Source of the DNA: Synergistaceae bacterium
GTDB lineage: Bacteria > Synergistota > Synergistia > Synergistales > Aminobacteriaceae
Reading direction: 5' to 3'
Assembly: GCA_017450125.1 (NCBI GenBank)
Contig: JAFSWZ010000009.1
Coordinates: 1 to 59,631, forward strand
DNA length: 59,631 nucleotides
Shown piece after piece: positions 18,934-48,555 of this stretch. Under the pieces are notes generated by a model. The model made no database searches and had not been told where the DNA came from. It saw only the letters and a program-made list of their open reading frames with translations. The position numbers and the translations under genes are program-made. Each line of letters opens with the position of its first letter. The first letter of the stretch is position 1.

Positions 18934-19897
18934 CTACACGTGGGAGAGTATTTCTGTGTCGTGCACTTCATTGCGGTCATGGTCTGTGAAGTCGCTCATT
19001 GGCCGCATGCCGCTGAGGTGGTCTGCCATGCCGCGTATCCTTTTTTCCTGATACTCCTCGAGGGATTTGCTGAAGTAGTGGTTGACGCGTATCTTGCTGA
19101 AGTGTACTTGTTCGGTGATGGGGCCGCGAACTATCCGGCCGTCTTCATCCAAGTTATGGAAGCCTCTGCGGTATGTCGGGAAGTGTACATGTCCGTAAAA
19201 AAATACCTTAGTCGGGTCGCATATAGTCTTGATGTGCTGGTTAGCAGGGAAGTCATCTTCTGCGCGCATCGTGTAATTCTCGAGGACTCCGCCTTCCGGC
19301 TTCGTGATGTGTCCGCTTGAACCGAATATGCACCAGTTCACGGCGAGGCCTCCGGCGTTCGGGTGAGAGGTCATGAACTCATCAACGAACTCGTATAGAT
19401 TGCTTAGTCCCCCCCCCCCCATTCGTAGAATTACGTACAAACATAAACTCATCCGCGTCAATGAAGCCCATGTACTTGAACTTGTGTCCGTAATCGTGAA
19501 GAGCCATGTTGTACGCATCAATCTGGCGAGCCTTGCCTCTTATTGCGTGATAGGTTACAAGTCCCGCATCGATGTACGGACTAAGGACTTCGCGGAAATT
19601 ATCCGTGCTCTCGTTGTCGTAGATTATGAAGTGCGAGACTCCCTGTTTGCGGTGAAACCCTATCCACTCTGCAATATACGGTGCTTCATTCTTTGCGATC
19701 AGGACGAACGCCAGACCTTTGCGCCCGGGCATGTTCTTGGCGCGGAAATATCCCAGCATCTTAATCATCATGAAAGGCGAGATAAGAATCTCCAGCAGGC
19801 GTAAAATCTTCTTGTCTGAAGTCAGATTACGGCATCTGTAGAGAAGCACATTGTACGCGCATAAATTATGCAGAACCCGCAAGCACTTTGCAAACAT
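18934..19897 (-). CDS. Phase-variable glycosyltransferase (present sequence frameshifted, OFF)
   Basis: The gene encodes a GT92/DUF23-like, GT-A-fold glycosyltransferase: FVLIAKNEAPYIAEWIGFH near residue 55, FIIYDNESTDN, the KARQIDAYNMAL segment and the DxD motif FIDADEFMF near 155. Right after the DxD lies a run of 12 G on the coding strand. With 12 the frame ends at codon 171. With 11 or 14 it continues into GGGLSNLYEFVDEF… to the stop at 18934, giving about 320 residues. The downstream half is clearly coding (VNWCIFGSSGH, MRAEDDFPANQH, GHVHFP). The ATG has a GGGGAGAG ribosome site. It likely adds a sugar to a surface glycan. The frameshift could also be an assembly error, but the tract type argues for slippage. 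Confidence 0.8.
19409..19420. repeat. Homopolymer tract C12 (G12 on coding strand) in a glycosyltransferase gene
   Basis: Twelve C on the plus strand. ON requires a length of 2 modulo 3 (11 or 14); the present 12 is OFF by one. On the plus strand ten bases follow the tract and then TTACGTA (19431-19437). Confidence 0.95.
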
Positions 19898-39184: not shown

Positions 39185-39688
39185 CTAGGGCTTGACCACA
39201 AACATACCTGCATGACTCTCAGCGACATAGACATCCGAAGACTTCAGGGTGTTCGTTGCAGTATCGCCGCAAAGACCTACAGACGCGGCGCGCGCAGCAA
39301 GTTTCTTCTTCACGTTTGTGTCGGAGACCTCGCAGTACACGTACCATTCATTGTTGTTGCACTTCTTGATGCCGTACCCTCTGTAGCTCGTCTTGTCGTT
39401 ACCACCGGTATTGAGATAGCTCAGCACGAGGTCGAACGAACCTGTCGCTGTTGTTGCATTGGAAGCTACGAGACCGTCTGTCATAGCACCAGCAGAGTCC
39501 AGCCTGTCGACGTACATTGCCGTCGCCGCAGTCTTCAGGTTGCGCAGGTTGCTGATGATGTTGTTCGCGCGCGCTGAACTCACTGCCTCAGTGCTCGACA
39601 GCATCATCATTGCCGCCAGAATGCCGATTACCACGATGACAATCAGCAGCTCCACAAGGGTGAAACCCTTACGCTTAATACTCTTCAT
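39185..39688 (-). CDS. Type IV pilin, likely major subunit (D)
   Basis: A 167-residue prepilin, leader MKSIKRKG and core FTLVELLIVIVVIGILAAMMML, then SSTEAVSSARANNIISNLRNLKTAATAMYVDRLD. It is the best candidate for the major subunit: it has its own -10 promoter, a strong AAGGAGGAAC ribosome site and a following terminator that isolates it from the minor pilins. Its upstream region holds a 12-base homopolymer covering the -35 position, so its level may be phase-variable. Confidence 0.9.
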   Translation of the reverse strand: MKSIKRKGFTLVELLIVIVVIGILAAMMMLSSTEAVSSARANNIISNLRNLKTAATAMYVDRLDSAGAMTDGLVASNATTATGSFDLVLSYLNTGGNDKTSYRGYGIKKCNNNEWYVYCEVSDTNVKKKLAARAASVGLCGDTATNTLKSSDVYVAESHAGMFVVKP

Positions 39689-39785
39689 TGTTTGTTCCTC
39701 CTTAATGTTTGTACAGAGTGTTTCCATCTTACAGCCCACAAGCGCGTGTAGTTTGTGATGTACATTCCTCCTCCACAGCCACCCC

Positions 39786-39791
39786 ATTATA
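39786..39791 (-). promoter_or_regulatory. -10 element of the pilin D promoter beside a homopolymer tract
   Basis: TATAAT on the minus strand. Counting back the usual 17 bases places the -35 on the last C residues of the C12 run and one A, so no normal -35 exists. The TTACGTAA palindrome (39792-39799) touches the -10. The leader to the pilin ATG is about 90 bases. Confidence 0.55.
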
Positions 39792-39809
39792 TTACGTAAA
39801 TTACCTAAT

Positions 39810-39821
39810 GGGGGGGGGGGG
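39810..39821. repeat. Homopolymer tract G12 (C12 toward pilin D) upstream of pilin gene
   Basis: Twelve G on the plus strand in the 151-base gap between pilC and pilin D, 122 bases from the pilin start codon. Toward the pilin, C12 is followed by ten bases and then TTACGTAA and TATAAT. Length changes would alter the region around -35 and anything bound upstream. Confidence 0.93.
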
Positions 39822-39839: not shown

Positions 39840-41096
39840 CTACGACAGCTGGACTATCGATGATGTTATCGGCGCAAATATTGAGATCGCTATTATAGCA
39901 ATTATTCCGCCAACAAACACTATCATCATCGGTTCAAGCAGTGATGTCGTTGCCTTCACCTGCTCGTCCAGCTCCTGGTCATACCACACCGCAACACGCT
40001 CGAGCATCGTGTCGAGGTGTCCCGTCTCTTCGCCGATCCTCATCATCTGCGACACAAGTACCGGGAAAATCCCCGCCTGCTTTGAGGCCTCGCCGAGCGA
40101 TATTCCCCTCATGACTCCCGTCCTCAGATGCTGGTAGCCCTCGCGAACCGCCTCGTTGCCCGCAGTCCCTTCCGCCATCTCGAGCCCTCTCACGATGGGT
40201 ACACCAGAGCTCGTCAGAGCCGACAGCGTACGGCTTGAACGTGCCATCGCGGACTTCAGCAGCAAGTCCTTCAACACAGGAATCTTCAGCTTCAGCTTGT
40301 CCATGAAGGGACGGGTTGCCTTGTTCCTGCTCAGTGCCTGCCAGCCCAGAACAATACCTATCGTTACGAGAGCTATCACGTACCAGTACTGCCCGAACCA
40401 GTCCCCAGCGTTGAACATCGCCGTCGTTATCGCGGGAAGCTCGATGTTCAGCGTCGCGAAGACCTCCTTGAACTTCGGCACGAGGAACATGAAGAAGAAC
40501 ACCAGAATCACCACCGCGAACGTCATCACGAACGCAGGATAGAACAACGCGCTACGAATCTTCGCCCTCAGTGCCTCCTGCTTCTCGAGGAGTATCGCCG
40601 ACTGTTCCAGAGCATCACCGAGCATTCCGCCTTCCTCTCCTGCCTCCACTAGGGACACAAGCAATGCGTTAAATGCCTTCTGTCTGCTCATTGCCTGGCT
40701 GAGCGGCATTCCTCTGTCAAGCATGTTCTTGATGTCCTGAAGTGCCTTGCGCAACGAGTAATTCTTCTCGGACTCGGAGATGATGTTTATCGCGCTCGAC
40801 AGTGCAAGCCCCGCATTCTCCATCGTCGCAAGCTGGCGGAAGAACACCATCAGGTTCTTCAGCGGAACTTTGCCGCTGCTGAAGATTGCTCCCAAGTCCA
40901 TGCTGAGGATTGACTTCAGGCCTCCGCCGCCCGTCTTCTTCTTGTCCGAGCCGGTCAATGAACCGTGTGCGTTGAGGCTGATTACTATCATTCCGCGCTC
41001 TCTCAGCGTCTTGAGGGCTGACTTCTGGTCATCAGCTTCGGCATAACCCTCGATGATCTGGCCGTCAGCAGTCCTGGCACGATACCTGAAGTTCAT
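39840..41096 (-). CDS. pilC: Type IV pilus inner-membrane platform protein PilC
   Basis: A 418-residue T2SF/GspF-family platform protein that couples the pilus ATPases to pilin assembly. It has a short N-terminal region (NFRYRARTADGQIIEGYAEADD) and two T2SF repeats, one around 70-190 (FFRQLATMENAGLALSSAI) and one around 275-400 (SRTLSALTSSGVPIVRGLEMAEG). Membrane segments lie near 170-190, 220-240 and 385-405. It lies downstream of pilT and upstream of the C-tract and pilin D. Confidence 0.93.
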   Translation of the reverse strand: MNFRYRARTADGQIIEGYAEADDQKSALKTLRERGMIVISLNAHGSLTGSDKKKTGGGGLKSILSMDLGAIFSSGKVPLKNLMVFFRQLATMENAGLALSSAINIISESEKNYSLRKALQDIKNMLDRGMPLSQAMSRQKAFNALLVSLVEAGEEGGMLGDALEQSAILLEKQEALRAKIRSALFYPAFVMTFAVVILVFFFMFLVPKFKEVFATLNIELPAITTAMFNAGDWFGQYWYVIALVTIGIVLGWQALSRNKATRPFMDKLKLKIPVLKDLLLKSAMARSSRTLSALTSSGVPIVRGLEMAEGTAGNEAVREGYQHLRTGVMRGISLGEASKQAGIFPVLVSQMMRIGEETGHLDTMLERVAVWYDQELDEQVKATTSLLEPMMIVFVGGIIAIIAISIFAPITSSIVQLS

Positions 41097-45146: not shown

Positions 45147-46272
45147 CTGAAGATAGAGTGGTACGGCCAAGTTTGGTGAGCTGGGAAACCCAAAGCTGAT
45201 TTCGCCAAGAGGTATTCCCGATACCAGTAAAGCACCACCACAGAGATAGTTACTGCCAAGAAAATCGCCCTCAAGTACTTGTCTTTAACCAGACGATGAA
45301 GTGAGGCAAGTGCATAAAGGTTGATGTAGTCCAAGTAGTCAAGCAGCCTCCAGATTGTGTATCCTCCTATAGTTGAGTACATGGCGCAGGCCAGCAGAGC
45401 ATTGATCTTGTAGTATTCGTCCTGCTTTGCCGGGAATAACCTGCTCGCATTCTTGCCATAGACGAACAGCATGATTATTACGGCTATGTTCTGGAAGATA
45501 TTGGCACGGAACTCCTGCGTGTTGCCGATCTGCATGAACATCAGGCTGTATTGCGGCGGAAGGAATGACATGCTCTCGACGACAGACAGAATCAGGTTCT
45601 GCAGGAAGAACATGGCAATAATTATCACGTAAGGAATCCACGAGACACCGCGCCCGGCATGAAGCGACGAGTTCACTTTTATGGTGAACCAGTACACGCA
45701 CATGATCGACACGACGGCCAGCAGAGCCGAATAGTGGAAGAGCGAAGCTATCAAGACATACATCATGAACTTCTTGTAGTCCTCGCGTCTGAGACAGTAG
45801 AATCCCGCGAAGATAATAGCTTCTGCCATGCTCTGCCGCATCTGGTTATACGTACGCTGATAGTGTATGAAGTAAAACATCATGAGTGCCAGGGGGGGGG
45901 GGCAACTTTCCTGAACCTCCAGCAACCCACATACACGCAGGCTACTGTGATAAGCTGATACGCAAACAGTGCGCCGTTCGGATGCTGGAAGAGATTGGCG
46001 AAAGTATAGCACACGATTTTATAGAGCGGCTCCCGGATTGTGGCATCGTGCGTCATGAAATCGTAAAAACTTATGGAATATATAGCGTCCAGTGCATCGC
46101 GGTAACCGTATCCTCCAGTATCAGTCCCGACGCTCTTTGCCCGCAGTCCGCCGAGAAAGACAGGTATCATGATGCTTATGATTGAGTAGAGGATAATGGT
46201 GCTTTTCCTCTTGGAGCGCGATGCCAGATAAGCAAAGTACAAGGAAGCCGCGTAACAGACCAGATATATCAA
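45143..46272 (-). CDS. Phase-variable EpsG-like polysaccharide polymerase (present sequence frameshifted, OFF)
   Basis: A second EpsG/Wzy-type polymerase gene, with TTG start at 46272 (AAGGAG about 10 bases upstream). It carries IMIPVFLGGLRAKSVGTDTGGY near 35-56. At codon 125 a run of 11 C on the coding strand shifts the frame and ends the product at 130 residues. With 12 C (or 9) the frame joins to LALMMFYFIHYQRTYNQMRQ and runs to 45143, about 376 residues. At 12 the proline loop aligns without gaps to RKYAPFPFILLLFF of the intact paralogue. Many membrane segments follow. It is probably the head of the EpsG-EpsG-pil gene run. A sequencing error in the tract is the alternative. Confidence 0.78.
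45892..45902. repeat. Homopolymer tract G11 (C11 on coding strand) in EpsG-like gene
   Basis: Eleven G on the plus strand. ON requires a multiple of three (9 or 12). Unlike the other three tracts, the exact TTACGTA flank is absent; on the C-strand side only a weaker TTTTACTTCA appears, 14 bases after the run. Confidence 0.93.
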
Positions 46273-47672: not shown

Positions 47673-48555
47673 TCAACGCGAATTAGCGATATGCTGGTAG
47701 ATACTTCGAGGCGACGGAGGCTCTTTCTCAGTCTTCCAAGTGAGTTTATGAAAATCGCAGGCCTTAGCACAAATTTTCACTCTTTCCTCAGAGTAATCCT
47801 CGCGCATGATTCTCTGCAAGTTATGGTTAACGTAATCTGATATGAATGGAACTCTGCTCCACTCTTCATAGTATTGTTCTGCCGCCATCAGGAAAAACAT
47901 ATGGAAAATGTAGTAGTGCAGCATGTAGTCATACTTTCTCCAGTACTCGAAATGCAAGTCCCTTACGAGTGTGAGTATAGGATCATGAGCGTCAGAGACT
48001 ATGAACCAATTTGAGGGGACATCGGCGAACTCAAATAACCTGAAGACGAACAGCGGCAAGTGCATAAGGTATTCTGTTTCTCTGCCTGTGCAGAAGACTG
48101 TAGAGTCAATCCATGTGCCGCCATGTTCAATGAGGAGCTGAAGCCTCAAGAGATTGGCGTATTTTGTGTTGTCGATGATGCCTTTGCGGTGCTTGTCGTT
48201 GATGAAGCCGGGAAGGGTTACGTAGTCAGAGATGTTATGCTGGTCGAGGGTGATAATTTCCTTGTCGGGATGCCAGCGTCTCAGTGATGCCAAGCAGGCC
48301 TTGCAGATGTCCGGAGTCTCGTTAATACCTTGCAGCCACAACCACCAGATTACGTTACGCCCCCCCCCCTGCTAGTGGTTTTACGTAATCGTAATTCGCC
48401 ACGAACGAGCTGAATTTTCGGCGAAGGTAATAATACTTTGGGTAGAAATCTAGACTAAGGGGAAGTACATTCACGCAAGTCCTTCTTAAAAACTCTCCAT
48501 ATTGCCCGCTGAGAATCAGATTCTTTGCGGCCGTCAGCTTTTTCTTAATGCTCAT
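47673..48555 (-). CDS. Phase-variable capsular-polysaccharide-synthesis-type glycosyltransferase (frameshifted, OFF)
   Basis: The gene resembles Caps_synth (PF05704)-type and DXD-sugar-type transferases. After the start MSIKKKLTAAKNL (ATG 48555, GAGGAG upstream) a run of 10 G on the coding strand follows DYVKPLA, and the frame stops at 66 residues. With 9 or 12 G it continues as RNVIWWLWLQGINETPDICKAC… to 47673, about 293 residues. Later hallmarks are IDNTKYANLLRLQLLIEHGGTWIDSTVF near 140 (GG-WID-type DxD equivalent). It would transfer a sugar to a surface glycan. The frameshift may be population-variable or an assembly error. Confidence 0.78.
48360..48369. repeat. Homopolymer tract C10 (G10 on coding strand) in glycosyltransferase gene
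   Basis: Ten C on the plus strand. ON requires a multiple of three (9 or 12). On the plus strand 11 bases follow the run and then TTACGTAA (48381-48388); ATTACGTTACG precedes it. Confidence 0.93.

Follow-up and report, generated by a model that had tools for sequence, protein, structure and literature searches.

An AT-rich DNA motif beside long G tracts in a genus of rumen-type Synergistales, with a possible role in phase variation

Homopolymer tracts as contingency loci

The usual account of homopolymer phase variation invokes tract length together with general repair. The closest described systems are the poly-G/poly-C contingency loci of Campylobacter jejuni, Neisseria and Helicobacter, and the tracts considered here resemble them in several ways: runs of G8-16 lie in surface-glycan, pilin-associated and restriction-specificity-like genes, tract length opens or shuts the reading frame, and some tracts occupy promoter spacers. 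Localised hypermutation can in general involve trans-acting factors (review, PMC4235727). At a single locus, pilE of Neisseria gonorrhoeae, a G4 element works in cis for programmed variation, and transcription of the associated small RNA opens the G-rich DNA (PMC3547852).

Long G tracts and their flanking sequence

The window, meaning the whole stretch of 59,631 nucleotides that was analysed, is contig 9 of a genome of 2,164,598 bases in 43 contigs from a Synergistaceae bacterium. Three of its tracts are followed, on the strand where they read as C, by TTACGTA after 10, 10 and 11 bases, respectively, with both tracts and heptamers lying exactly where the earlier note had placed them. The relevant features are as follows.

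19409..19420, minus strand: G12 tract (C12 on plus), within a glycosyltransferase gene (GT92 / Glyco_tranf_2_4) on the minus strand
19422..19437, minus strand: tag TACGTA-ATTC-TACGAA, 1 base 5' of the tract in G-strand sense
39185-39787, minus strand: pilin-like gene with N_methyl motif, one neighbour of the intergenic tract
39793..39807, plus strand: tag TACGTA-AAT-TACCTA, 2 bases 5' of the G12 tract
39810..39821, plus strand: G12 tract, intergenic, between the pilin-like gene and a T2SSF gene (39840-41096, minus)
45892..45902, plus strand: G11 tract (C11 when read on the coding strand), within an EpsG gene on the minus strand
48360..48369, minus strand: G10 tract (C10 on plus), near the 5' end of a minus-strand gene for capsular polysaccharide synthesis (Caps_synth, PF05704), which continues at 47673-48341
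48370..48387, minus strand: degenerate tag TACGTAAAACCACTAGCA abutting the G10 tract, with a good left arm and a poor right arm

TTACGTA extends to TTACGTAA at the intergenic and capsular sites, and the partial match ATTnnGTAnn claimed between the first two sites is recovered only after a one-base shift (ATTCGTAGAA vs ATTAGGTAAT). The heptamer was said to occur roughly 7-10 times in the window, and 10 copies were counted on both strands; about 0.005 tract-linked copies would be expected by chance, giving a Poisson p of ~2e-8 for three. The fourth tract, in EpsG, carries neither TTACGTA nor a recognisable tag (PWM score 3.5).

The excess beside tracts extends to the whole 2.16 Mb genome, the opposite of the outcome that the earlier note named as refuting; this genome holds 35 C/G runs of at least 9 bases, tracts well beyond the length that chance would give, and 120 copies of TTACGTA: nine distinct runs have the heptamer 0-14 bases downstream on the C strand against 0.015 expected, and none has it within 14 bases in the reversed control, ruling out chance as the cause of the linkage. 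The fixed spacing proposed from the window sites does not hold genome-wide, where it spans 0 to 11 bases, since the heptamer is the reverse complement of the left arm of a motif that is longer and degenerate.

This motif was defined by aligning flanks on the G strand, first for all 35 tracts of the source genome and then for 153 distinct tracts drawn from about 30 genomes of its genus. Most of the information falls within the 17 bases 5' of the G-run, with little 3' of it, and the tag reads T-N-N-GTA-(3-5 mostly A/T)-TAC-N-N-A, then 0-6 bases, then G8-16. The strict pseudo-palindrome is present at 92/153 tracts vs 2/153 control positions, with a gap to the tract of mostly 0-2 and up to 6 bases. 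An expectation-maximisation (EM) fit recovered T-R-M-G-T-A-A-W-W-T-W-M in 83% of the 153 tracts, mostly ending 3-7 bases before the run (log-likelihood 507, vs 81 for a shifted control). Overall, the tag accompanies 60-75% of tracts vs 2% of shorter G-runs or random places, and about 30% of tracts lack it. Broken down by run length, it is found at ~50-80% of G9-G15 runs vs 2% of G3-G5, 2/57 G6 and 0/7 G7; its frequency at G3-G7 runs is no higher than at random places, while the few G8-G9 and at least 10-base runs do carry it. Among the fetched loci, for which a run of 9-10 or more was the selection criterion, runs of 7-9 are few and those of 10-13 many. A minority flank class, TACGTAATTCAC, abuts the run in several unrelated genes. 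A hairpin beside the tract was rejected, as the arms do not covary (pairing 0.21 vs 0.30 expected, and 0.40 vs 0.32).

Genes carrying tracts

In the window, one tract each is located in a GT92-like glycosyltransferase gene, in EpsG and in a gene for capsular polysaccharide, and one lies upstream of a pilin-like gene. Elsewhere in the genome, the translated halves of tract-bearing genes look, by inspection, like sugar epimerases/dehydrogenases, short-chain dehydrogenases, polysaccharide pyruvyl transferases, asparagine-synthase-like proteins, methyltransferases and a type I restriction specificity subunit. This set is the classic contingency-locus repertoire. Some intergenic tracts have TTGACA on one side and TATAAT on the other, the classic promoter-spacer design. 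Tract length sets the frame, with coding sequence continuing on both sides for one length class and assembled lengths falling both in and out of frame; across the 19409..19420 tract, for example, 11 G (mod 3) leave the frame open, whereas 12 G shift it. Between assemblies, near-identical orthologs of two species differ in length, G9 vs G12. From these frame shifts and assembly differences, the kinds of change seen, we infer that long G-runs probably switch surface-sugar genes, among others, on and off.

Two further groups of loci were observed. Three HsdS-like type I restriction specificity genes (L027, L126 and L152, identified by inspection), coded on the C strand, are interrupted by tagged tracts, which suggests that DNA methylation may be switchable. 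At L021-L022 (G000 contig 23, ~62000-64100), three adjacent glycosyltransferase paralogs all terminate in a G tract that carries the tag, with TTGTTGTTGC-type repeats 3' of each.

Distribution and species-specific spacing

The strict motif with G10 was found in 21/43 genomes of the genus and in 0/145 other genomes of the phylum, a joint count of motif and tract, not a share of existing G tracts. The relatives that carry a name are goat, red deer and reindeer assemblies assigned to Synergistales/Synergistaceae. A search of viral contigs gave no exact match, and viral carriers of the tag were rejected on this ground. Most tracts used to train the position weight matrix (PWM) came from G000, G017, G005, G044 and G003, with single loci from other genomes added; in the largely held-out genomes G042, G010, G046, G012 and G004, the motif is present at 47-73% of tracts vs 4-9% in shuffled flanks. 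Tag frequency is high in G017, G051, G000 and G042. G041 and G009 have tracts almost without the tag, and in G041 many untagged G tracts lie a few bases 3' of TTGACA, that is, as promoter-spacer switches.

The distance between motif and tract is tight within most genomes and differs between species (permutation p ~5e-5), averaging 4.2 in G042, 4.4 in G017, 5.2 in G000 and 6.7 in both G004 and G046. The consensus drifts as well: the right arm is often GTGTAA or GCGTAA in G042, and G004 has TCAGCAGAATTAC and prefers TCAGCAGAATTACTCTTGC-like flanks. Species-specific spacing and consensus drift look like the product of co-evolution with a recognising factor. All genomes are draft, apparently metagenome assemblies, and tract lengths are consensus values. 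Some contigs start or end at a G tract (e.g. L163 at the start of G043 contig 189, and bases 3-27 of G000 contig 23), so tract counts in such genomes are probably underestimates.

Proposed role of the motif

It is proposed, with a probability of roughly 45%, that the flank is a cis-acting DNA site that sets the positions at which phase-variable G tracts form and/or their degree of instability, probably via a trans-acting factor. The site T-N-N-GTA-W3-5-TAC-N-N-A, a few bases 5' of the tract, would determine tract placement and/or instability; a trans-acting DNA-binding factor of the genus' own would most likely recognise it, and this factor, presumably a protein, would bias slippage, repair or growth of the G-run immediately 3' of the site. 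The range of 3-5 bases in the core counts against this site, being loose for a rigid dimer. The wider idea, that the genus has a dedicated system installing or maintaining hypermutable G tracts at recognised sites, with contingency loci placed and tuned by a trans-acting factor and not by undirected slippage, is possible yet doubtful.

Candidate enzymes were compared across 31 genomes. Loss of MutS was rejected as a cause, MutS being present in 31/31, and templating by reverse transcriptase was rejected since the enzyme is found in 12/31 and is absent from tract-rich G017. With MutS everywhere and reverse transcriptase not, no obvious enzyme correlates, and no responsible factor was found among the enzymes compared. 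One reverse transcriptase frame of ~370 aa (L220, G000 contig 40, 127856-128479) has an upstream part that reads through a repeated VTEPSLEELK peptide, which is a CRISPR-like DNA repeat, and a Cas6-like frame follows; it is probably a CRISPR-associated reverse transcriptase.

Alternative explanations

An intrinsic effect of the DNA itself is a reading that we consider unlikely but worth keeping in view. An AT-rich, flexible flank with TA steps might melt or pause the polymerase and raise slippage with no dedicated factor, and such flanks could be enriched by selection for switching or by mutation bias. The AT-rich core, its conserved TA steps, the tolerance of 3-5 bases and the partial presence of the flank in tract-free orthologs all agree with this, but the fixed G and C positions within the arms (G 0.86), the species-specific spacing and consensus, and the restriction to a single genus would be unexpected from physics alone.

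Less probable still is a promoter on the G strand, with TAAWWT as a -10 element and transcription starting in the G-run, as for the gonococcal pilE G4-associated small RNA, its precedent (PMC3547852). TAAWWT lies ~5-8 bases before the run, the correct distance for a start inside it, and the first two positions of the hexamer are well conserved (T1 0.83, A2 0.95); the sixth, however, is T in just 58% of sites, not above the A/T background in N4 cores, which weakens a sigma-70-like -10 as a candidate, and the flank alignment holds no -35 signal upstream. A sigma-70 -10 was therefore rejected as a general explanation. The C-strand (antisense) promoter suggested in the earlier note holds for a few intergenic tracts in TTGACA...TATAAT spacers, but not for tracts elsewhere.

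It is very unlikely that a tiny mobile or templated element (~35 bp) inserts into genes and that tract and flanks are its copies. In its favour, most orthologs of a UDP-sugar dehydrogenase in the genus have, relative to outgroups, an insertion of 7-12 residues holding tract and tag, and a direct-repeat score across the tract of 5.20 vs 4.94 +/- 0.08 for permuted pairs gives a weak hint of target-site duplication. Other genes point the other way. Tract-bearing (G000, G055, G005, G051) and tract-free orthologs of an FAD-dependent gene differ by about one codon, tract-free G017 having TATGAAATTTTACGCA / TATGAAATTTTACGCAAGGCCGGAG, and so the tag with no tract, where G051 has TACGAAATTTTACGCA / TACGAAATTTTACGCAGGGGGGGGGG plus G10; the gene tree implies 3 changes by parsimony, with poor support. 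A short-chain dehydrogenase compared with its own adjacent paralog also changes by about one codon, and in the FAD, short-chain dehydrogenase and glycosyltransferase-region genes the net change is -1 to +2 codons, the tag consisting of substituted native codons. No fixed unit is thus present or absent between orthologs, net changes ranging from -1 to ~+12 codons, and reverse transcriptase is missing from tract-rich G017; these comparisons imply that no cassette moves. A fixed-length insertion was accordingly rejected, the shared insertion origin raised earlier is not supported, given the same length changes and in-place flank substitutions, and the empty-site comparisons largely refute the mini-element. 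Instead, the tract grows in place, at a site already resembling, or coming to resemble, the motif. Two loci may be partial cases: the UDP-sugar dehydrogenase L167 (G056) has the tag (TTCGGTAAAAATACAGA) and after it no more than GGG, a tract either decayed or incipient, and the short-chain dehydrogenase L243 (G046) has TACGTAATTCAG with a G7 run and a shifted frame, possibly an intermediate tract.

A constraint at the coding level, such as residues favoured before a Gly run or stops for the off frames, is hardly credible. Most tracts are intragenic and the bases 3' of them often form stops, but the motif occurs at much the same rate among tracts with a coding G strand (73% of 91), a coding C strand (71% of 14) or no long frame crossing them (64% of 22), and the tag is found in two codon frames, the third of which has a stop. 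Because it is equally common in all three contexts, the tag is a DNA-level feature, and a coding-level cause of it is refuted. The earlier suggestion of a site tied to tract instability and indifferent to coding needs is supported to this extent: the motif is genus-wide and oriented with the G strand, whatever the orientation of the gene.

A poly-G sequencing or assembly artefact of two-colour chemistry is just as improbable, for although some tracts lie at contig ends and the genomes are apparently metagenome assemblies, protein homology runs on past the tract both ways, the same gene positions recur across goat, deer and reindeer assemblies, and the tag consists of ordinary sequence.

Comparison with known systems

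As a pseudo-palindrome with outer T..A and inner GTA..TAC, the proposed cis-acting site is reminiscent of dimeric operators or recombinase half-sites; here, however, the core varies from 3 to 5 bases, the arms do not covary and the G-run is always on one side. It shares with the gonococcal pilE G4 element and its cis-acting small RNA a G-rich run, an adjoining element and a fixed orientation (PMC3547852), but pilE G4 is one locus driving gene conversion, whereas many loci with a single homopolymer, known from sequence alone, are found here. The poly-G/poly-C loci of other bacteria have been described by tract length and repair background, and the literature searched, with most subscription papers outside the search, contains no report of a common motif beside homopolymeric phase-variable tracts. 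In this genus, by contrast, a common DNA motif adjoins them, and the same AT-rich tag 5' of G-runs, whatever the gene, suggests that switch placing or instability is guided by a DNA signal and not by chance. A genus-wide, orientation-specific motif makes it testable whether contingency loci are programmed by cis sites plus a trans-acting factor, and provides a sequence signature for finding both the tracts and the factor.
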